Virus record (IMG/VR): IMGVR_UViG_3300031851_000199
Location: 1 to 23,332 of that record
Direction: 5' to 3' (one strand)
Source: a virus
DNA: 23,332 nt
In this document: positions 1 to 23,327 of the stretch, piece by piece
How positions within the stretch are numbered: the stretch's first letter is position 1
How the letters are laid out: every line of letters starts with the position of its first letter
The notes under the pieces: generated by a model
Databases searched by the model: none
What the model was told of the DNA's origin: nothing
What the model saw: the letters and a program-made list of their open reading frames with translations, nothing else
Made by a program: the position numbers and the translations under genes

Positions 1-3000
1 TGTTATCTAAAGGTACACTAATACCTAAAGCAGATCTTAAAAAACTTTTTATAGATTCAGCTGCTGCGGCTGGTCGAGCCGTTAATACAAATATATCACG
101 ATCGCCTTTTGCTTCAGTTAATTTTTTGGCAAGCACAGCAAGAGGGCCTTTTGAACCGTCTTTAACTGTACTAAATTCAGAAAAATCAAATTGTGCACCA
201 AGCTCCGCAAGCTCACCTGATTGCTCCGCAAACTCTGTAGCTGTTAAACTACCAGTAGTGCCGTCAGGAAGCAAATAAAGCACGTTAGATTTGCTTTTAG
301 CAAGTGTATCGTCAAAGTCAAATACTCTAGCTTTCTTTTTAGGTGCATTTTTATTCATTGCAGCGGCTTTAGCCTTGCTTAAAACACCTAATCTTTCATT
401 AATTTCAGCAGTACTTAAATCTTTTGTATCTACACCAAGATCTTGCAAAAGCTTTTCGCCTTCTTTTCTTATGTTCTCTTGTGCAGCAGCGACCCCAGCT
501 TCATTATAAACAGCCAGTCTAGCTCTTGCGGGTGTATTAACATCTTCAATTTCTTGTGTAGCTACTTTAGCAAACTCAAGCCACTGAGCTTCCGACATGT
601 ACTTCTTAACGGTTTGATAACCAGCGTCTATAGCTTTAGTTAAACTTTTACCTGCTTTATAAGTTGCTTTAACTGTACGTAATCCACCTACTAAAACATT
701 TAAGCTAACGTCTTTTGCAGCTAATAATAAGAATGGATCAACCGCAAAACCTTTTGTACCAGTAAGCTCTGTAAGTTTAGCTATAGCTCTGTCTATAATA
801 AACTCAACTTTATCTTCAGTTACAACCTCATTAGCAGCTTTTATAGCGTCAGGAGTTGAAGGACTTTCTACTCCTATTTCTTCAGCTACCGTTTTATTAG
901 TCGTAACATTACTAATTTTATTTAAATCTAAATTAGCTGCTGACATTCTTTTTATGCCGGCATTATTATCAAGCATGCTAACTCCTTTTGGTAAAGACTT
1001 AGTTAACTTATTTTCAGCTATAAACTGATCATTCTTTTTTGATTGTAGTACTTGAAAAAAGTTTTTATTCCATTTAGGTTTTAGCTTGTTAACTTGGTTA
1101 AACTTGATCATAGGTATTAAGCTTAACCCAGCCACGTTAGCTGGAGGTGTGTGTTCTTCAACTGTTTTTATTCCTTTATTATAAGGACCTGTGGTCCCAT
1201 GCTCAAATTTATCTACAATGTGAGTTATGGGTGCCGAAGTTTTAATCCAGCCTGATGTTGCCTGCAACGCTCCTGTAATAAACAAAGAGGCTAGTTCTAT
1301 TGGAGCTCCATTTTTATTTACAGCGTCGTTTAATATTTTTACTATTAGATCACTTGCTTCTTGATTTTTTATAAATCCGGATTGATTTTCTTTTAAAAAT
1401 TTTTTAGTAGCTTTTTCATTACCTTCAATTTTTTTAGGTATTGTAACCCTTTTCAAATCTGGAGTGATATAAAATTTATCATTTTCTCTAGCAGCCGCGA
1501 GAGCATCGAGCCATGCTCTTCCTTTTTTACCATTGTATAAGCCTCCTCTTGAAGGTCTAATTTCATTAATAAATTCCGCTGGAGGGTTATATAAATGTAC
1601 TCCATTCTTATTTATTGAGGCAAACTCTCCTTTTACAGAGCTTCCGTCAAATAATACGTAATATTTAGGAGATTGTTTTGTAGGTCTACTTAAAGATTGT
1701 GCTCCAAAGTTTTGTAATTGTGATGCTTCAAGGAGCCAAGATGGTATTTTATTAGTTTTTATAAAATCCAACATTTTTGCTTGTTTAGCTTTTACATCCG
1801 TTTTTGAGTCAATAGTTATTTGATCAATTCCTAATAATTTATGTATATTACCAGAATTTATTTTTTCTCCAGCAATTTCAATATATATTTGTTTTTGGCT
1901 GTCTGTTAGTTCATTAGTAATACCTACATTATTAGTTATCTCAGACTTTAGTTGATTTAAATCTTTGTATTTTGTTTGTAAATCTTTATCCGTACTTAAT
2001 GCTTTAATTGCTTGCGATGATGCAACAGATACAGCTACAGCTTCTTTAAATCTTGCTTTTCTATTAGATCTAGTAGTTTTAGCTACACTAGGGTCGTTTA
2101 AATAATTTAATAAGGCATTAACTTTTGTATTTTCAAATGCAGCCTTTTCAAGCTTACCATCTTTAAATACAAGCATACCTGCGTCTTCAAATGGATTTAC
2201 AGATACACCGGTTTTTTCATCTTTAGCTCTAGCCATTCGCATGCCTTCAACAGTTAGCATGTCATATAAAGGCGCTGCGTTTTGTATTACTTTATCAGAA
2301 AATTGTTTATCACTTACTTTATCTTTACCAAAAAACTTATCAACAGGATCTTTAAAAGCTACTTTAAAATCATTTGCTATTTGGCTTTTAAACTTTTTAG
2401 TATCAGGATTAAAGTGTTTAGCTACTATATTTTTAACTTTATTATTGTCAAGTTTTAATCCAATGTTTTTACCCGTATCAACCCTATCTTCAGCAATTGC
2501 AAAATCAACTCTTTCGTCGGAGGTTAGCTCCCGCGCCTGCGGAGCCTCTAAACTAGCTGCCCCCTCTGTTACTTGTTGACCAACTTTTTCATCTAATATA
2601 CGCTTACCTCTATTTTCTAAATTACGTACAATATATGTAGATAACTTTTGCCCTTCTTCTGGTTTAAAAGATTTATATAAACCTCTTAATGATGACGAAG
2701 GATTTTTATCAGTGCCGTAAGTTAAGTCAGTAATAAACTCAGCTTTTGTTTCAGCTTTTTCGCCAAACTCAGAATATTCTTTAAATAAAGTATTTGCAAC
2801 CTTATTTAATAAAGGCTGCATTTTAGGAACTACAACATTATTAAATACCTCTACTGATTTAGGGTTAGCATCGTGTGCTTTATTTATTTCAGTAGCATTT
2901 TTTATACTAACTTCAGAAACACCCTCAACTTCTTGGGCTTCAATAACTGCGTCTTCAGCAATACCTTTTATTCTGTTTTTTGCTTTAATAAAAGATTTTT

Positions 3001-4633
3001 TATAACTTTCTAAAGTTGTTCTATATTCATCTTCAGGAAGTTTATCTTTTTTAGCATTTAATTCATTTACTCTTTTTAATTGTAAATCTTTTAAATCTTC
3101 AAATTTATTTATTTCGTCAATATTTTGCTTCGAAAGCAAATTGAAAACTCCATTGGCTCTTACCGTTATATTTTTTAATTGATCTTGAGTATCGTCTATT
3201 TCTTTTTGAACTTCGACCGCTACCTCGGTATCTTCAGTATTTTTTAATTGCTGATTTAAATCTAATAGTCTGTCTGTTAATTTTTCAGTATTATTTTCTG
3301 GGTCTATTTCAGCTCTTAAGCCTTTTAAAGCTTTATAACTTTTTTTAGCACCTCTACCTCCAAGTCCAAAAACCACGGTTCCTGCAGCCGCCTGTAGAAA
3401 AGTTTCTGCCCCGTTTTCTAATATTGATTCCCAAGCCTCTTTGCCTGCTTCAATTACATCTTTGCCTTGCGCCAGTGAAGTGTTATAGGTTTCAACCCCT
3501 AACTGTCCTACTTCTGTTAAGCCTTCTCTTGTAGGCGATGTTAAAAAGTGTTTAACTAATCCTTTGCTAAAAAATTTATTAGCATTCATAGCCTCCCTTA
3601 TGCCTTTTATACCAAATCTTTCAAGGCCTATAGACAATGTAGCTAGTGCTGCAGGAGTTCCTATTTCAAGTTCGTTGTCGTCTATTAATTTTTGATAAGC
3701 TTCTTGAATAGGTATTTCTTCTCCATATTTATACTTTGCTTTTTCAATATTATAATCCCTAATCATTGGCCCGGCAATCTGCGGTACAAGCGTAGCCCCA
3801 TATGTAAAAACAGCAGGAATAGCGCTAGCACCTACGTTGGCAGTTCCATTTATAACACCTGCTAATGCTTCTCCTAAATCACCTTCTTTAATACCTTCTT
3901 TTATGCTAGCTGATGGGGGAAATAGTTTTTTAATATCCTCTGATTGCTTTACTAATTTTTGTAAAGTTTCATTTTCCTTCCTATTTTCAATTTTACTTTT
4001 ATCAAATTCTTTAAACCTGACATCCCTCATTGTAGTTCCAAAAACAGGCTCTGCATCTGCGACATTTTCAATTGCACTTAATGTGCTTACCGCTACACCA
4101 TTTGCCATATCCATCCAATACGGACCCGGCATTCCTCCTAACCCATCTGGTCCCATAAAAGTATAGGCTATATCAGAAACTCTTTCTTTAAATGTAAAAG
4201 GTTTATTGGTTTTGGGATTAATAGGCCTTACATATTTTTCCGGAAGAAGCTCTGCGTTCAACTCCCCTGTTTGTCTGTAATTTTCAAAAGCTTCTTTTTG
4301 TTCGCCCCTAAACTCTCCTTGATCAAACCTAGCTTTTATATTGGTTAAATCCTCTTCATTATACTTTTTAAATTCTTTGCTAGCGGCATAATTTTCAAAC
4401 TCTTCTTTTGTAACTTCTTGATTATTTATAGAATAAGGAACTTTGCCTGCTACACTATCTTGTTTTTCAACAGCAATAGGTTCTACTTCAGTTGCTTCTT
4501 TAACAGTATTTTCACCAAGCATTTCTGCTTTTTTACTATCAATAGCAGCTTGCACTTCTTGCTGAGACTTGCCTTGTGACTCCAATGACTGGGCTAATGC
4601 AATTAATTCTTGCTTTTGTGCTTCTGTTAGCAT
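1..4633 (-). CDS. Giant internal virion (ejection-type) protein with C-terminal HAD phosphatase-like domain, partial
   Basis: An open frame reads without a stop from an ATG at 4633 to the left edge, giving 1544 codons; the 3' end is outside the window. The start lies one base after the stop of the preceding gene, in an A/T-rich leader. The N-terminus is helical and Q/E/A-rich. Hydrophobic, small-residue-rich stretches occur near residues 250-290 and 408-425, with an E-G-L-T-E-V-G-Q segment near 370, a type of sequence I associate with large phage internal proteins. Residues about 430-650 are charged and helical. From about 1435 a HAD-type domain begins: motif I F-D-F-D-D-T-L (D1439, D1441, T1443) and motif II V-L-T-A-R-P (T1518); motifs III and IV would lie beyond the edge. 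Size, place after the tail genes and partnership with the two preceding genes suggest a T7 gp16-like role in DNA ejection. That role is inferred; no transglycosylase motif was recognised. Confidence 0.85.
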   Translation of the reverse strand, partial: MLTEAQKQELIALAQSLESQGKSQQEVQAAIDSKKAEMLGENTVKEATEVEPIAVEKQDSVAGKVPYSINNQEVTKEEFENYAASKEFKKYNEEDLTNIKARFDQGEFRGEQKEAFENYRQTGELNAELLPEKYVRPINPKTNKPFTFKERVSDIAYTFMGPDGLGGMPGPYWMDMANGVAVSTLSAIENVADAEPVFGTTMRDVRFKEFDKSKIENRKENETLQKLVKQSEDIKKLFPPSASIKEGIKEGDLGEALAGVINGTANVGASAIPAVFTYGATLVPQIAGPMIRDYNIEKAKYKYGEEIPIQEAYQKLIDDNELEIGTPAALATLSIGLERFGIKGIREAMNANKFFSKGLVKHFLTSPTREGLTEVGQLGVETYNTSLAQGKDVIEAGKEAWESILENGAETFLQAAAGTVVFGLGGRGAKKSYKALKGLRAEIDPENNTEKLTDRLLDLNQQLKNTEDTEVAVEVQKEIDDTQDQLKNITVRANGVFNLLSKQNIDEINKFEDLKDLQLKRVNELNAKKDKLPEDEYRTTLESYKKSFIKAKNRIKGIAEDAVIEAQEVEGVSEVSIKNATEINKAHDANPKSVEVFNNVVVPKMQPLLNKVANTLFKEYSEFGEKAETKAEFITDLTYGTDKNPSSSLRGLYKSFKPEEGQKLSTYIVRNLENRGKRILDEKVGQQVTEGAASLEAPQARELTSDERVDFAIAEDRVDTGKNIGLKLDNNKVKNIVAKHFNPDTKKFKSQIANDFKVAFKDPVDKFFGKDKVSDKQFSDKVIQNAAPLYDMLTVEGMRMARAKDEKTGVSVNPFEDAGMLVFKDGKLEKAAFENTKVNALLNYLNDPSVAKTTRSNRKARFKEAVAVSVASSQAIKALSTDKDLQTKYKDLNQLKSEITNNVGITNELTDSQKQIYIEIAGEKINSGNIHKLLGIDQITIDSKTDVKAKQAKMLDFIKTNKIPSWLLEASQLQNFGAQSLSRPTKQSPKYYVLFDGSSVKGEFASINKNGVHLYNPPAEFINEIRPSRGGLYNGKKGRAWLDALAAARENDKFYITPDLKRVTIPKKIEGNEKATKKFLKENQSGFIKNQEASDLIVKILNDAVNKNGAPIELASLFITGALQATSGWIKTSAPITHIVDKFEHGTTGPYNKGIKTVEEHTPPANVAGLSLIPMIKFNQVNKLKPKWNKNFFQVLQSKKNDQFIAENKLTKSLPKGVSMLDNNAGIKRMSAANLDLNKISNVTTNKTVAEEIGVESPSTPDAIKAANEVVTEDKVEFIIDRAIAKLTELTGTKGFAVDPFLLLAAKDVSLNVLVGGLRTVKATYKAGKSLTKAIDAGYQTVKKYMSEAQWLEFAKVATQEIEDVNTPARARLAVYNEAGVAAAQENIRKEGEKLLQDLGVDTKDLSTAEINERLGVLSKAKAAAMNKNAPKKKARVFDFDDTLAKSKSNVLYLLPDGTTGSLTATEFAEQSGELAELGAQFDFSEFSTVKDGSKGPLAVLAKKLTEAKGDRDIFVLTARPAAAAESIKSFLRSALGISVPLDN

Positions 4634-6296: not shown

Positions 6297-7483
6297 CCTT
6301 TTTCTGCAAAATATCCAGTTGCTGCACCCGCTGCGGCTTCTGATAGGCCGCTTAACAACATGCCTCTTTGTTTTTCATATGCTGCGGATTTTTGAGCAGC
6401 TTTTTGATTGGCCATTCCTAATTTGCTTGCTAATCTATTGTATTGCATACCTTGAACATCCATAGCTCCTTGCCTACCCATAATGTCTGCTTGCATACCG
6501 CTTTGTGCTGCAAACTGGTTAGCTGCAGTTGCTGCTTGTGCATTAGCCATGTCAACAGCCTGGTTGCTGCGAAATTGCTCCATTGAAAATTGATTTTGGG
6601 CTCCTGCATTAAATTGATTCATTTGTGCTTCTTGCCCAAATTCTGCTAGTTCAAACTGATTAGCAGCTTGAGCTCCAAATTGTGCCGCTTGGTTCATAGC
6701 TCCCGCGTTAAATTGAGAAGCTTGATTCATAGCTCCCGCGCTAAATTGAGCAGCTTGATTGGATGCGCTAGCATTAAACTGCGATTGCCCTAAATCAAAT
6801 TGAGAAGCTGTATTGCTTTGTCTTAATTGATCTCTTTGCAATTGCATTTCACCCTGTGCTCTCCGCATTTCATTTGCCTTAACTTGTTGGTCAATATCAG
6901 CTGCAATTTTAGATTTAGACTTCGCTGCAGCTGCTGCTAAGGCCGTTGCACCTCCTCCCCCAGTTCCTGCTTGTGCCGCTAGATCTTGGCTTGCCGCTAA
7001 CGACTGGTCTGCCTCTTGAGCAGCTAATTCCGCCCCTGCTGTAGAAACTTGAAGATTATTAAACTCGTTTGTTAAGCCTGTAGCGTCCCCGGTTAAAAGA
7101 GGCCCTATGTTAGTGCCCTGGGCCGTGTAACCTTGGGCTTGATAGCCTGTAGCTTCATAGCCAGTAGCCTCTCCTAGAGTTGGCATTTCAGCTGTTGCTG
7201 CGCTTCCTAGTTGTTGAGCTTTTGCTGCCACAGGATCGTAGCTAGCTCCTTCTATACCCTCAAAAGCATTTTTAAATTTAAATGCGTCAACTTTTGCCAT
7301 TGCGGCAGCTTTAGCTTTTTCTGCTTTTGCAGCAGCTCTACGCTTTCTTTTCCTGCCAAATAAAGATCCAATACCTTTTATGAGACCTCCAGCCGCCCCA
7401 ACACCAGCAGCAATCAGCAAGGCAGAGCTCGCCTCTACAATATAAGGTTCACTTGTTATTTCTAATAAAATCTGTGTAGTCAT
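6293..7483 (-). CDS. Internal virion protein with glycine zipper and Q/N/A/F repeats
   Basis: This 396-residue protein has a hydrophobic glycine-zipper segment at about residues 21-43 (ALLIAAGVGAAGG followed by LIKGIGSLFG). A strongly basic stretch (RKRKRR, 44-49) and an Ala/Lys helix come directly after it, an arrangement suited to a pore or membrane-inserting ejection protein. Residues about 102-125 hold short Gly-Tyr repeats. A GTGGGGATALAAAAAKSKSK segment comes next, a type common in phage internal proteins. Residues about 212-300 carry 11-residue repeats of Q-F-N-A-G-A-M-N-Q-A-A type. The role, pore-forming internal virion protein comparable to T7 gp14 but larger, is inferred from these features and from its place before two other large virion genes. 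The start overlaps the cupin gene by 35 bases; no later ATG would keep the zipper, so this start is preferred. Confidence 0.82.
   Translation of the reverse strand: MTTQILLEITSEPYIVEASSALLIAAGVGAAGGLIKGIGSLFGRKRKRRAAAKAEKAKAAAMAKVDAFKFKNAFEGIEGASYDPVAAKAQQLGSAATAEMPTLGEATGYEATGYQAQGYTAQGTNIGPLLTGDATGLTNEFNNLQVSTAGAELAAQEADQSLAASQDLAAQAGTGGGGATALAAAAAKSKSKIAADIDQQVKANEMRRAQGEMQLQRDQLRQSNTASQFDLGQSQFNASASNQAAQFSAGAMNQASQFNAGAMNQAAQFGAQAANQFELAEFGQEAQMNQFNAGAQNQFSMEQFRSNQAVDMANAQAATAANQFAAQSGMQADIMGRQGAMDVQGMQYNRLASKLGMANQKAAQKSAAYEKQRGMLLSGLSEAAAGAATGYFAEKG
6687..6785 (-). repeat. 33-bp tandem repeat encoding 11-residue Q/N/A/F units
   Basis: Two adjacent 33-bp units (6687-6719 and 6720-6752) are nearly identical, differing at only a few positions, and a diverged third unit follows to about 6785. 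All lie in frame inside the glycine-zipper protein gene and encode units of the form QF-x-AGAMNQA. Further protein-level copies with looser spacing flank them. The near identity of the two central units points to recent duplication. Confidence 0.75.
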
Positions 7484-7940
7484 TTTTTGTGTATGAATAA
7501 TTAAAATCTTCTAACTCGTCTAAATCTGTTAACTTAAGAGGGTTTTGAAAAACATTTTGAAATATACTATCTTCATGAGCATAAATTGCTCTTTGCGTGC
7601 CACCTTTGGAAAACCCCATATAAGGAGCAATATAATGTTCCGCAATGCCATTAGTTACTATAGTAATAGATCCAGTTAACAAAAACCAAACATGATCTCT
7701 TTTGTGTATTGCGCTAACCACCGCTGCGTCTTCTGCTAATTCCATTCTTCTTAAATATAACCCATCTGTAAAATCATGTACTAATTTAAAAACTTCTTTA
7801 AATTCTCTAACAGCTCTACCATTATTATGGGCAAAGCTTTCAGTTACTTCTTTTGAATAAGCATTAGTTAAAAGATTATTAATTTTTTTTTCAAAAGAGT
7901 ATGCTATTATTTTGTTCTTAATTAATTTAATTAAATTCAT
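7449..7940 (-). CDS. Cupin-fold virion-associated protein
   Basis: This 163-residue protein has a helical N-terminal third and then a cupin-like (RmlC-type) beta-barrel at about residues 65-135. The first cupin motif is recognisable as I-H-K-R-D-H-V-W-F-L-L-T-G, with H79, H83 and G90. The second reads G-G-T-Q-R-A-I-Y-A-H-E-D, then Q-N-V-F. The position where cupins usually hold a third metal-binding histidine appears to be F131, so metal binding may be lost or use other residues. Small cupins of this type are familiar to me next to tail and internal virion genes of marine phages; their role is unknown. It starts 6 bases after the 79-residue gene and its 3' end overlaps the next gene by 35 bases. 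An enzymatic role is possible, but a structural or sugar-binding role is as likely. Confidence 0.75.
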   Translation of the reverse strand: MNLIKLIKNKIIAYSFEKKINNLLTNAYSKEVTESFAHNNGRAVREFKEVFKLVHDFTDGLYLRRMELAEDAAVVSAIHKRDHVWFLLTGSITIVTNGIAEHYIAPYMGFSKGGTQRAIYAHEDSIFQNVFQNPLKLTDLDELEDFNYSYTKNDYTDFIRNNK

Positions 7941-7946
7941 ATAATA

Positions 7947-8186
7947 TTATTGACTTGAATAAACCGCTTCTGAGTTAACAGCAAACAGTTCAGCTTTGTT
8001 AATTGATTTATCTACCGGTAGCTTTAAGCGAGTACGCATAAATGTACCTTTTGTTCCCGACACAAGCTTAGTTGCGTCCGCCACAACAGCACCAGATGAA
8101 ACTTTATATGTTGTTTCTTCCGACACTATTGGTGCAAAATACTTACCTTCTTTTTCTTCAAAAGGAAATTTAATTATCGTACTCAT
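7947..8186 (-). CDS. Small virion-region protein of unknown function (79 aa)
   Basis: Not recognised. The 79-residue product has no membrane segment or signal peptide, and its pattern of alternating polar and hydrophobic residues suggests beta structure. Its ATG shares one base with the stop codon of the giant tail protein (TAATG), so translation is probably coupled to that gene. The cupin gene starts 6 bases after its stop. By position it is most likely a minor structural or assembly protein. Confidence 0.7.
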   Translation of the reverse strand: MSTIIKFPFEEKEGKYFAPIVSEETTYKVSSGAVVADATKLVSGTKGTFMRTRLKLPVDKSINKAELFAVNSEAVYSSQ

Positions 8187-11100
8187 TAAGCTTGATTTAT
8201 TGTTATAGTTTGTTTTGCAATTGCAGATCCTGTAACTCTAGCGTTGTTATAAGGCTCTATTTCAATGTCTGCCGTTCTGCTTGAGCCTGTAGTGTTATCT
8301 TCTACGTTAATAGTAAAAGGATAATTTGAGCCTAAAAAATCAATTCCATCAGGATCAACAACTTTTGATCCAGCCGAACCATTTAATAATAGCCAAGACG
8401 GTGTTGAGCCGCCGCTGATAACAGCAGATATTCGTATTGGAACTGTAGCTCCATTAGAATTGGTTATAGTTGTATCTGTATTGCCTGAGGCTGTAAAAGA
8501 TATTGAACCAACATATGTACCAACAGATGCTGTGACTTCACCTGAACCTGTTATAGTCGAGGTCGCTGTTAAATCAGAAGCGCTAGGTGGTATTACAATA
8601 ACTTTTTCTAAATACTCTTGTGATACATTATCTATTGTTGTGCTTGATATAGAGTAACCAGGAACGTCATAAGCAAGACTATATGAGCTAGGTAGTAAAA
8701 CTTTGTCTGTGCCACTAGCTGTCCATCTTAAGGTTGCTGTCCTGGTTGTATTAGCACTATAAGGACTATTACTATATGCGTTACCAGCAGAAGTGCCAGC
8801 AGGTGTGGTTAAACCACCGCTAGCGGGGGTTGCCCATGTTATAAGCGGTAAAACTGTTGCTGCACCACTTACTCCTAAAGAATTATTTGTTGCTGTTGTG
8901 GGTACAAGCAAAGGGAATGTTGCTAAGACGTCTCCATTGTTATACCCCAAGGCAAAATCAGTAACATTAGTACCATTACCCATGCCACTGTGGACGCTGC
9001 AATAATAGTATAATGTAGGAGTAGTAGCGGATACAACTATTTGTGTATATGCACCAGCAGAACCAGGTGTTCCATTATAGGTTACTCCTGTTGTATATTC
9101 AGTCCCACTCCCGTGAGTGCCATCAGATGTTGTGCTAAATTTTAAAGGATGGCCTGTGTTAGAACTATTACTTTGATCAAATATATATGTTTTGCCTTTT
9201 GTTAAAATTAGTATAGGCTGCTTTAAAGCCTCTATACCATTGGGGGCATCGTCTATAGCGTATTTATTCGGGCTATAATTTCTAACTAAAACATTCCTAG
9301 TTACAGTAGATGCTGGTACAGCTTGAAGAGTCGTTAAACCGCTTGTATTTGCCACTATATTACCTGGATCTATATAGTGTGTAGAAGTTGGTGATACTGT
9401 TAAAACTAAATTATTTGCACCAGATGTAGTATATGTTGCAAGAGCAGGACTAACAGCTCCATTAGAAACTGAGTCTCCAACACTCACTGTTAATAAACTA
9501 ATTTCAAATATTAAGGCAGCGCCTGTCCCTGATATTGTTACGGTTTTTATTTCATCGCTAATTCCAGCTGTTCCTGTAATTAAAAATACTAAATTATTAT
9601 TTGTAATAGCAGAAGGATTTTGTACTCCAAGGCCGCTTCCGGTTAAAACAACATCAGTGATGTTTTCAAACTCATAATCTGAATTTTTAGGCTTAGCGGT
9701 AATGATCCATTGAACAGATTCCCCGTTTTTAGCGTACACAGATTGCTCGCCAGTTATTACGCTATTATCAGCAGCACCGCTTAATTGCAATGTTAACAAA
9801 CTAAAGCTTTCTAAAGCAGGCTCGTTGCCTACAGAAGAAATATCTGTTTGCATAAAATCTAATTCCCAACCCGTAGTCCCTTCATAACTTATATTATTAA
9901 AAGTTTTTATTGTTGAAGGATTGTCGTTTAATATAGGCTCTATATAAGATTCAGCCGCGCTTGCACCATAAAAGGTATTCCTATTAACGCTTTCACTGTT
10001 ATGTTTCCATAATTTGCCATTTTTAAAAGTATAATAAACGTTATTTAAACTTAATCCGCCTTCTTGTTCAAAAGATTTAAAACTAGTCCAGCCCTGGCTT
10101 CCTTCATCAAAACTTATAGTAAAATAACCATCTATTGCTGTGGCAACATTGGTGTCTTTAAATCCACTAAACCCTTTACCTATTAAGGTTAAATTATAAA
10201 GATTATTATATTCATCATAAGAACCGATAATTTCGTCGGATTTAGCTAAAGCATCTCTAAAAAAATCGCTCATTCCGTTTTGCGATATTTCAACTAAGCC
10301 GTTCTGAGATAATCTCATTACACTGCCCCTACTCTTATCAGTAAAGTATTTAGCATAACCATAATATGCAAACGACATAGGATCTTTAGACATGCCAAAT
10401 TCTCCCGCGTATGGAGCAATGGTACCCAAAAACTGAGCACTTGTTGTTACAGGTATCGCACCACCTTCTGCAGAATATATAAAGTCTTTATTAACTGGCG
10501 ATCTTGAAATCTTATCTTCTTGAAAAATAATTATTTGTGTATCATCAGCAAAAAGCTTTTGTACTGATCCATCTTGAGGATCTAAAGATATTGTTAAACC
10601 GCCTTCGGCTTCATTAAATTGGTTTATATAGTTTATATTTGTTCTAGAATTAAATAGACCACTTGAGTGAATTAATGTATTAAATCTTCTTTCTTCTGCA
10701 AAATTTTCTTTTACAACATAAGCTCTAACACCTATATCAAAAGATTTTTCGTTATATCCAGCTCTAAGTCTATTTATTTCAATGTGAGTTCCTGAACTAA
10801 AAGTTAATAAATAACAATTGTAAAATTGTATATCTACCGCTGTAGTTGTCAAATCAGATATTAATCCTCCAGTTGATGTTTCAAAAAATATATCTAAATC
10901 CGACTGAAAGGGTTCAGTTTCAAAAACGCATATACCCGAGGTAACCGTGTCTGTAGGAACATTAGCGGTCCCAGCAGGGTTGTTTATAGATTGTACTTTA
11001 GTTAAGCTAGCAGTGGTTTTATTTACTCCCCCTAATATTTTAGGATATACAGCTACGTTGCAGGGAGAAATAGTACCGCTTGTGCTTGGGGGTATTACTG

Positions 11101-12553
11101 CTGTTTGGTCTCTTGGTACTTTATTTATACTATCACCTAGTCTTGCTACAGTGTTTAAAGCTGTTATACCAGAAATCCAATTATAATATTCTTGCTCTCT
11201 TTGTTTTACTACAATTCTATAAGAGTAACACCAATCTAAACTTTGTAGTGCTGTTATTGTAGTTTGTGCAAATGCTATACGCAAAGAATTAAAAACGCTT
11301 GTACTGTCAGCCTCTCCTGTTGCTGCATCAATAAAAACAGTATCTCCCCCCGTTTCAGATAATAATACAGGAGTTTGTCTTCCAAATTTATCCGCTAAAA
11401 CTACGCCAACTTGATATGTTCTTCGAGACTTAACTGACATACTGTTATCTAGCTCTGTATACCTAGCTGAGGCTTCTCCGGTTCTTGAAACCGTAAAAGA
11501 TACGTTAGGTATATCAAAATTTTGCAAATAATTGCCGTATACTAGTCTACCACCAGCTAGCTCTTGTGACTTAGCTATTCTTGGAACAGCGTCTGCTACT
11601 CTTGTTAATTGATCAGAGGGTAGCGTTTTAAATGGATCTTGTGACTTGTAAAAAAAGTTTACACTTGTTTCTGAAGTTAAAACTTTGCTTTCTACCACAT
11701 ACAAAGCACCACTTCCGGTTTCTTTATATATAAGCTCAACTTTATCAATCGCTAGCCCTTGAGGGGTTGGAACTGAAAGCTGAACAGATTTTATTGCATT
11801 AACAAAAGTTTCAATTTCTCCAAAATCATTTATATCTGAAGATATTGTATCCACATTACCCAATCTTGAAAAACAAATAGGAGTAAAGGGAGCTAATATA
11901 CTATATTCACCGTCTTCAAATTTATATCTATATGAAAATCTAATTAATTTATTTTCTAAAAAATTTGATGTAATGGGGTTGCCTTGCTCATCTAAGTTTG
12001 AAACCCCTACAATTGAAGCAGCTTTATAAGGAGCAGGCTTAGCGACAGAAATAACGTCGTCTATGTTTGCTGCTAAATTATATCTACCTGGTGTGCTTCT
12101 AGCTGTTTCAACGTTTATTTTTCTAGGAGGATTTCTATCATCTGTAAAAAATAAAAGTTCATCAACTAAATTAATTCCTGTTATAGGATATTTTTGATGA
12201 AAATTTAAGGCGGCACTATTAACTATTACTGTAGATTTATTTGCTTTTTGATTGTATTCAATTATTTGGTGACTGCCAGAATTTATTTCATTGTAAGAAT
12301 TATTATTAGTTATAAAATAATATATTCTATCATTACCGTTATCTCGATATTCACCTATTTTTTTTGCATTAGATATTGCTGTATCTATTATAAGCTCATT
12401 ACCTAATATGTTTTCTACAGCCCCAATATCTGAGCTTTCAGATTTACTTACATTTATATTTAATGCTTCTCGATATTCACCGGGCTTTAGCATTTTATCG
12501 TCTAAATCGCGATTCATTCGACTCGCGTTAAACAATCTTTTAATTTCTGGCAT
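8186..12553 (-). CDS. Giant tail 'stabilisation'-type protein with Ig-like, cupredoxin-like and BACON-like domains
   Basis: This 1455-residue protein begins with S-R-M-N-R-D-L-D-D and then a P-G-E-Y-R-E-A-L-N segment and a G-N-E-L stretch. This is the N-terminal pattern I associate with the P22 gp10-like tail stabilisation proteins of crAss-like phages. Residues 1 to about 880 form one large region without named motifs. About 900-1090 looks like two or more Ig-like beta domains rich in Thr, Ser and Gly. About 1098-1200 resembles a cupredoxin, with H1135 (in T-G-H-P-L-K-F) and C1185, H1188 and M1191 (in Y-Y-Y-C-S-V-H-S-G-M-G). About 1350-1455 is BACON-like: S-W1387-L, N1420, S-S-R1426-T-A-D-I-E-I and a terminal T-I-N-Q-A. 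It probably sits on the tail and binds cell-surface material. The fold calls are by eye. It follows the connector gene by 5 bases. Confidence 0.85.
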   Translation of the reverse strand: MPEIKRLFNASRMNRDLDDKMLKPGEYREALNINVSKSESSDIGAVENILGNELIIDTAISNAKKIGEYRDNGNDRIYYFITNNNSYNEINSGSHQIIEYNQKANKSTVIVNSAALNFHQKYPITGINLVDELLFFTDDRNPPRKINVETARSTPGRYNLAANIDDVISVAKPAPYKAASIVGVSNLDEQGNPITSNFLENKLIRFSYRYKFEDGEYSILAPFTPICFSRLGNVDTISSDINDFGEIETFVNAIKSVQLSVPTPQGLAIDKVELIYKETGSGALYVVESKVLTSETSVNFFYKSQDPFKTLPSDQLTRVADAVPRIAKSQELAGGRLVYGNYLQNFDIPNVSFTVSRTGEASARYTELDNSMSVKSRRTYQVGVVLADKFGRQTPVLLSETGGDTVFIDAATGEADSTSVFNSLRIAFAQTTITALQSLDWCYSYRIVVKQREQEYYNWISGITALNTVARLGDSINKVPRDQTAVIPPSTSGTISPCNVAVYPKILGGVNKTTASLTKVQSINNPAGTANVPTDTVTSGICVFETEPFQSDLDIFFETSTGGLISDLTTTAVDIQFYNCYLLTFSSGTHIEINRLRAGYNEKSFDIGVRAYVVKENFAEERRFNTLIHSSGLFNSRTNINYINQFNEAEGGLTISLDPQDGSVQKLFADDTQIIIFQEDKISRSPVNKDFIYSAEGGAIPVTTSAQFLGTIAPYAGEFGMSKDPMSFAYYGYAKYFTDKSRGSVMRLSQNGLVEISQNGMSDFFRDALAKSDEIIGSYDEYNNLYNLTLIGKGFSGFKDTNVATAIDGYFTISFDEGSQGWTSFKSFEQEGGLSLNNVYYTFKNGKLWKHNSESVNRNTFYGASAAESYIEPILNDNPSTIKTFNNISYEGTTGWELDFMQTDISSVGNEPALESFSLLTLQLSGAADNSVITGEQSVYAKNGESVQWIITAKPKNSDYEFENITDVVLTGSGLGVQNPSAITNNNLVFLITGTAGISDEIKTVTISGTGAALIFEISLLTVSVGDSVSNGAVSPALATYTTSGANNLVLTVSPTSTHYIDPGNIVANTSGLTTLQAVPASTVTRNVLVRNYSPNKYAIDDAPNGIEALKQPILILTKGKTYIFDQSNSSNTGHPLKFSTTSDGTHGSGTEYTTGVTYNGTPGSAGAYTQIVVSATTPTLYYYCSVHSGMGNGTNVTDFALGYNNGDVLATFPLLVPTTATNNSLGVSGAATVLPLITWATPASGGLTTPAGTSAGNAYSNSPYSANTTRTATLRWTASGTDKVLLPSSYSLAYDVPGYSISSTTIDNVSQEYLEKVIVIPPSASDLTATSTITGSGEVTASVGTYVGSISFTASGNTDTTITNSNGATVPIRISAVISGGSTPSWLLLNGSAGSKVVDPDGIDFLGSNYPFTINVEDNTTGSSRTADIEIEPYNNARVTGSAIAKQTITINQA

Positions 12554-22532: not shown

Positions 22533-22774
22533 TATTTTATTCTATCTTCTACACCTAAAAATTTTACTTTATCTTCAGTTTTTTTATCTGACGACAACTC
22601 TTCTATTTTTTCTATAATTTTAAATGAGTCTTCAATTGCCACCCATTTAGCCTGCGCTGCTATTTTTGCTTTCTCAGGTTCTAATTCAACTAAATTAATT
22701 TTTTGTCTTATAACTTTATCAAGTTCAATTAAAGCAATTTCTGAAGCTTCAATTACTTTCTTCCTTCGATTCAT
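22532..22774 (-). CDS. Small helical protein before terL (80 aa), unknown
   Basis: Not recognised. The 80-residue product begins M-N-R-R-K-K, is predicted by eye to be almost all helix, and ends in a Lys/Glu-rich tail. It overlaps the upstream Cpn10-like gene by 26 bases and terL by one base, so the three are probably translated together. Its place would suit a small terminase subunit, but it is shorter than most and no DNA-binding helix-turn-helix is evident; that assignment is only a possibility. Confidence 0.7.
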   Translation of the reverse strand: MNRRKKVIEASEIALIELDKVIRQKINLVELEPEKAKIAAQAKWVAIEDSFKIIEKIEELSSDKKTEDKVKFLGVEDRIK

Positions 22775-23327
22775 ATTTTATTGTAATTTGATTTGATAAA
22801 ACTCTATATAATTTTTGACCCTCAATATTAAACTCATATTCAGAATCAGGCGTAAAGCCCACCACGTCTCCTATAGAGACTCCTAACAAGCTTAAAGCGT
22901 CGTTGCTATACACAAGCTCTCCGTGTAATTGTTTCTCTTTTAAAACGCTCCATTTTGATTCGTTGCTTATTGGCTTTACAAAGCAATAACCGCTTAAACA
23001 TTTCCAGTTACCATTTCTTTTATAAGCGTATATTTGATCCGGTGCAACTAAGAATTGATTTTCATTTACAAAGCTAGATGAATTTTTTTCTTTACCATAA
23101 ATATCAATCCATCTTCTAAAAACATTGTGATGCAAAATAACTTCATCTTCTTTTTTTATTTCGCTATCAAACATTATAGGTAATGATATTACTTTGCCAA
23201 TTCTATTTGTATACATGTAATCCCTCTCGGATATTTCTGTATTAAGTATTAACTCTTTGTCTTCTACAGTCGTAGAGTTATTATATCTATTTTCAGAATA
23301 TATAATATAATTGTAAAGTGATCGCAT
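22749..23327 (-). CDS. Tandem GroES/Cpn10-like co-chaperonin-type protein
   Basis: This 192-residue protein seems to contain two Cpn10-like barrels. The first (about 1-118) opens with S-L-Y-N-Y-I-I-Y, has N-R-I-G-K-V-I-S-L-P and K-K-E-D-E-V-I-L, and closes at V-A-P-D-Q-I-Y-A. The second (about 112-185) has H-G-E-L-V-Y, G-V-S-I-G-D-V-V-G-F and Y-R-V-L-S-N-Q-I-T-I. GroES proteins share this order: an opening P-L-x-D/N-x-V/I strand, a G-x-V strand, a G-D-x-V/I-x-F strand and a closing I-(L/Y)-A. A phage-encoded Cpn10 (as T4 gp31) would work with host GroEL to fold the capsid protein. There is no clear mobile loop of the usual type, so activity is uncertain. Only five bases precede the ATG, so a start further upstream cannot be excluded. 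Confidence 0.7.
   Translation of the reverse strand: MRSLYNYIIYSENRYNNSTTVEDKELILNTEISERDYMYTNRIGKVISLPIMFDSEIKKEDEVILHHNVFRRWIDIYGKEKNSSSFVNENQFLVAPDQIYAYKRNGNWKCLSGYCFVKPISNESKWSVLKEKQLHGELVYSNDALSLLGVSIGDVVGFTPDSEYEFNIEGQKLYRVLSNQITIKYESKEESN

Follow-up and report, generated by a model that had tools for sequence, protein, structure and literature searches.

The muzzle of crAss-like phages forms the tail tip, where host contact is thought likely (PMC10172136). In phage P2 the tail spike is iron-loaded, and a Ferrojan horse hypothesis has been put forward for iron in marine phage tails (PMC5797145). Viral cupredoxins are known from cyanophages, which encode the plastocyanin PetE (PMC3037559). 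Both the fold and the metal site considered below are familiar; in the open-access literature that we searched, which leaves out most subscription journals, we found no description of cupredoxins in virions, of this fold and site recurring as a cassette in virion proteins, or of a copper precedent in phage tail parts. Here we describe a cupredoxin-fold domain with a full type 1 ligand set in a crAss-like muzzle protein, and we favor, with a probability of roughly 0.58, the reading that it is an inserted, putatively copper-binding cassette that acts as a copper-stapled, host-facing module.

The muzzle protein and its inserted domain

The window, by which we mean the whole 23,332-nucleotide stretch of viral DNA analyzed, covers the block of structural genes of a marine crAss-like phage: those for the muzzle, the portal, head and packaging proteins and the large subunit of the terminase. 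The 1455-aa muzzle (tail-tip) protein that carries the domain (8186–12553, minus strand) was recognized by its Pfam matches to crAss_MUZ (3.4e-12) and crAss_MUZ_C (7.2e-8), both above the cut-off, with 45.8 and 33.2 bits against the crassvirus muzzle families PF25731 and PF25729 (cut-off 27), and by its PHROGs match to phrog_14478 (3e-115). The Pfam muzzle match stops near residue 900 and is followed by an arm of some 550 residues, almost entirely beta strand in the AlphaFold2 model (residues 905–1455; 8189–9841, minus strand; pLDDT 92.9, pTM 0.71). This arm houses the cassette and ends in a tentative BACON-like domain (residues 1383–1455; 8189–8407, minus strand; Pfam BACON E = 0.0032, under the cut-off). 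Foldseek returned a short match between the arm and a Bacteroides GH5 xyloglucanase, an enzyme that we take to contain a BACON domain, and the match may reflect that part of the enzyme.

Elsewhere on the minus strand of the window, a co-chaperonin GroES-like gene (22749–23327; phrog_13932, E = 1e-23) lies upstream of the terminase gene, and a 163-aa protein (7449–7940) is akin to proteins of the short tail fibre in other phages (phrog_12032, E = 1e-15). A protein of at least 1544 aa (2–4633), which had no Pfam or PHROGs match and bears a HAD-like FDFDDTLA near its C-terminus, is perhaps an ejected cargo protein.

Positions 8954–9262 (minus strand) translate without a stop into residues 1098–1200 of the 1455-aa open reading frame. 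A preliminary description had placed here all four residues of a possible type 1 copper site, H1135 followed by C1185-x2-H1188-x2-M1191, and translation returned all four residues at those positions, with minus-strand codons at 9149–9151 (H1135, putative first His ligand), 8999–9001 (C1185, putative Cys ligand), 8990–8992 (H1188, putative second His ligand) and 8981–8983 (M1191, putative axial ligand). C1185 is the sole Cys of the domain and indeed of residues 581–1455. The CxxHxxM motif occurs a single time in the 10,172 aa of six-frame open reading frames in the window, and its composition-based expectation in the 1455-aa protein is 0.00025; given this figure, and because the four ligand positions are conserved in homologues, we ruled out a chance motif.

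The domain makes up a cassette of about 118 residues (approximately 1083–1200; 8954–9307, minus strand) that is absent at this place in more distant muzzle relatives. Across 79 loci with muzzle relatives, the full-length proteins closest to ours (core identity of at least 74%) contained the domain and in every case CxxHxxM, while relatives at or below 69% core identity were about 100 residues shorter and did not have it. In the muzzle alignment the beta-rich flanks run on either side of the gap that spans the domain, and this continuity identifies the domain as a discrete module, gained or lost whole. A FastTree phylogeny placed nine of ten muzzle representatives in a single clade (support 0.86); the copy at locus L329 may, with weak support, represent a separate acquisition.

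The domain was modeled with AlphaFold2 from an 86-row alignment (pLDDT 90.2, pTM 0.83), and the cupredoxin-like fold suggested in the preliminary description was borne out. The top 50 Foldseek matches in the PDB were all cupredoxin folds, comprising nitrite reductases, rusticyanin, laccases and other multicopper oxidases (best E 1.9e-4), and the top 50 from VIA-align, including factor VIII, all belonged to the cupredoxin superfamily, with Z of 7.9–8.8, values near 8 being modest by that tool's own guidance. The weight of the structural evidence lies in the uniformity of the match list and in its agreement with the sequence profile. By DSSP, residue 56 of the model (H1135) directly precedes a strand, residue 106 (C1185) ends one, and residues 109 (H1188) and 112 (M1191) sit in the loop after the Cys strand, which in the model is the classical arrangement of a type 1 copper site.

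Sequence comparison pointed the same way once a profile was used. The single domain sequence had no significant phmmer match in the PDB; the 86-row profile matched a solved nitrite reductase (E = 2e-4) and plastocyanin (near 6e-3), the latter with all four ligands in register, and copper proteins made up nearly all of its 45 matches. In hhalign, comparison with a set of eight genuine Copper-bind proteins encoded in marine genomes gave a probability of 93%, the H, C and H positions coinciding. The profile failed to align with four azurin-type sequences, and membership of an azurin-like subfamily was ruled out. No curated cupredoxin family covered this copy, and no model in Pfam, NCBIfam or PHROGs labeled the domain a cupredoxin: Pfam PF00127 (Copper-bind) and PF13473 (Cupredoxin_1) gave no match, the best member of alignment A1 reaching E = 0.0089, below the cut-off, and neither did NCBIfam TIGR02657 (amicyanin) or TIGR02656 (plastocyanin), one A1 member reaching E of 0.004–0.007, again below the cut-off.

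Conservation of the putative copper site

The rows of the 86-row alignment had been preselected for H-C-H, and the invariance of these residues there counts for nothing for that reason. Conservation was instead assessed in a profile-gathered set without ligand selection (391 distinct copies, 177 representatives at 80% identity), in which the lowest-entropy columns were one Gly followed by H1135, C1185 and H1188, with M1191 ninth, although profile searching can favor ligand-bearing copies even in such a set. The ligands, whose conservation the preliminary description had named as a check, were conserved, with His at the first position in 170/177 representatives, Cys in 169/177 and the second His in 168/176. 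The axial position was mainly Met (153/175), then Gln (18/175), and was Leu once, in a single HCHL representative.

Losses of the ligands were coupled. In all eight representatives without the Cys the second His was gone too, and the second His alone was lost once. When counted as clusters at 50% identity, both residues were kept in 23, both lost in 5, the His alone lost in 1 and the Cys alone in 0 (Fisher p = 5e-5, relatedness ignored). Gln and Leu are known alternatives to Met as axial ligands of type 1 copper sites, and joint loss together with this Met/Gln/Leu alphabet is as a type 1 copper site predicts.

These data bear on the possibility that the domain is a cupredoxin-derived beta-sandwich that is metal-free, its H, C, H and M being kept for packing, or that holds another metal such as Zn. 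Several copies without the ligands retain the fold by sequence, and since some homologues do without the site, it is not always needed. Yet the columns of the two His and the Cys rank with the most conserved, the Cys always disappears together with the second His, and the axial substitutions match those of known copper sites, so that we consider this alternative unlikely. From the conservation we consider it likely that the domain binds a metal, and the protein family to which it belongs points to copper as that metal.

In one subfamily (CxxHTGQG; L308:4610–5005, L261:4534–4929 and relatives L397–L450) Gln takes the place of the axial Met, as it does in stellacyanin. The giant phage proteins with these Gln-axial copies also contain Met-type copies, and one giant protein may contain differently tuned copper sites. 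Separately, the tail proteins of S-RIM44 (L086) and S-CAM4 (L087) contain second, degenerate copies of the domain that have lost some or all of the ligands.

Distribution of the domain in phages and cells

We found 540 relatives in IMG/VR and 57 annotated phage records. The module was present in several marine phage groups, namely crAss-like phages, T4-like cyanophages, pelagiphages and methylophages, and the annotated carriers with a stated host or source are presumably all marine or estuarine (cyanophages, the pelagiphages Baldr and Mosig, and Methylophilales phages). According to annotation or PHROGs, from which their location in the virion was taken, the carriers belong to the tail fibres, to the wedge or connector proteins of the baseplate, or to the virion structural proteins. 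In PHROGs the module has no label beyond "tail fiber protein" or "unknown function."

Among cellular genomes, predicted lipoproteins from SAR86, Woeseiaceae and other gammaproteobacteria, in which we recognized signal and lipobox by eye, terminate in the module (for SAR86 and Woeseiaceae, L104:3761–4306, L113:3815–4336, L123:2618–4321 and L131:2705–4252), and Pfam gives the domain in these SAR86 and Woeseiaceae proteins no name. Other copies lie within large surface proteins that also contain cadherin or Big domains. Some of the "cellular" loci, for example in Pelagibacteraceae, look like phage tail fibres. A 169-aa beta-sandwich protein of Marseillevirus LCMAC201 (BFVD A0A481YVH3) matched the domain model (E = 1.9e-5), and eukaryotic giant viruses may thus also encode cupredoxin-like proteins.

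Candidate roles and comparison with known systems

If the cassette is the copper-stapled module that we favor, each domain would bind a single copper ion, which it would pick up once folded or once the host had lysed. Because the only Cys is the ligand Cys, the domain cannot be stabilized by a disulfide, and copper may chiefly lock the domain in place of one. So rigidified, the domain might serve as a rigid, exchangeable, outward part that contacts the host or acts as a spacer, and not as an electron carrier. That copper stiffens a module which is exposed and exchangeable, on the part of the tail facing the host, is the weakest step, to which we give slightly less than even odds.

The preliminary description had also raised exploitation of host copper uptake, which we regard as speculative. 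One alternative is a copper lure, a Ferrojan horse for copper in which the loaded domain would dock on outer-membrane metal-uptake receptors of the host; the iron precedent (PMC5797145), the siting of the domain on the tail tip and tail fibres, and the confinement of annotated phage records with the domain to marine phages all speak for it. The module is found in cell-surface lipoproteins too, however, where luring would be senseless. The copper of a type 1 site is, moreover, buried and tightly held, and we judge such a lure to be distinctly improbable.

A redox role, in which Cu(I)/Cu(II) switching would sense or exchange electrons at the envelope of the host, perhaps thereby setting off ejection, appears more doubtful still. 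Type 1 sites of soluble cupredoxins are usually electron-transfer sites, and the Met/Gln/Leu variation would provide axial tuning. Against this, the second-His loop is polar and Gly-rich (CSxHSGMG), whereas electron carriers would be expected to show a hydrophobic patch, and a redox partner is absent from the window.

An immunoglobulin V-set domain, the label that the deposited notes give to the carriers in P-HM2 (PHM2_106, L089; PF07686) and MED4-213 (BFVD M4QD42) and that a YYC motif might recall, was ruled out, since a single Cys makes the immunoglobulin disulfide impossible, the top structural matches are all cupredoxins, and Pfam gives this copy no immunoglobulin family; the label on these two carriers is probably a misannotation.

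If the favored reading is true, the cassette would be the first copper-binding virion module that we found described, spanning several marine phage groups; it would offer a concrete metal role for tail proteins and make the tailed phages of the ocean possible copper ligands. A module now filed as "tail fiber protein," "unknown function" or immunoglobulin also gains a name. Given that unrelated ocean phages and some ocean microbes share the domain, many marine virions may carry copper. The larger picture, in which many marine phages bear copper-loaded modules, use the bound copper to dock on the host or to trigger infection by a redox change, and make virions an ocean copper carrier, seems to us improbable.

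Among solved structures, the best fold matches were the N-terminal cupredoxin domain of the three-domain copper nitrite reductase of Hyphomicrobium denitrificans (2dv6, 6tfo) and rusticyanin (1rcy), with E of 1.9e-4 and 1e-3, and with Z of 8.8 and an rmsd of 3.2 Å over 105 residues for 2dv6. These share 13–19% identity with the phage domain, and they are soluble or enzyme domains rather than virion modules. The plastocyanin/pseudoazurin/amicyanin family (PF00127) resembles the phage domain in that the four ligands fall in register with those of plastocyanin, and the CxxHxxM spacing is also that of amicyanin; unlike these proteins, the phage domain has a long Gly/Thr-rich segment between the ligands and sits in giant structural proteins. 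The muzzle gp44 of PhiCrAss001 belongs to the same Pfam muzzle family, but the description of PhiCrAss001 includes no cupredoxin domain. Cyanophage PetE is encoded by a separate host-type gene of 324–369 bases with a photosynthetic use and no part in the virion. The P2 spike and the Ferrojan horse hypothesis would have in common with our module a transition metal in a tail part, although there the metal is iron and the folds are others.
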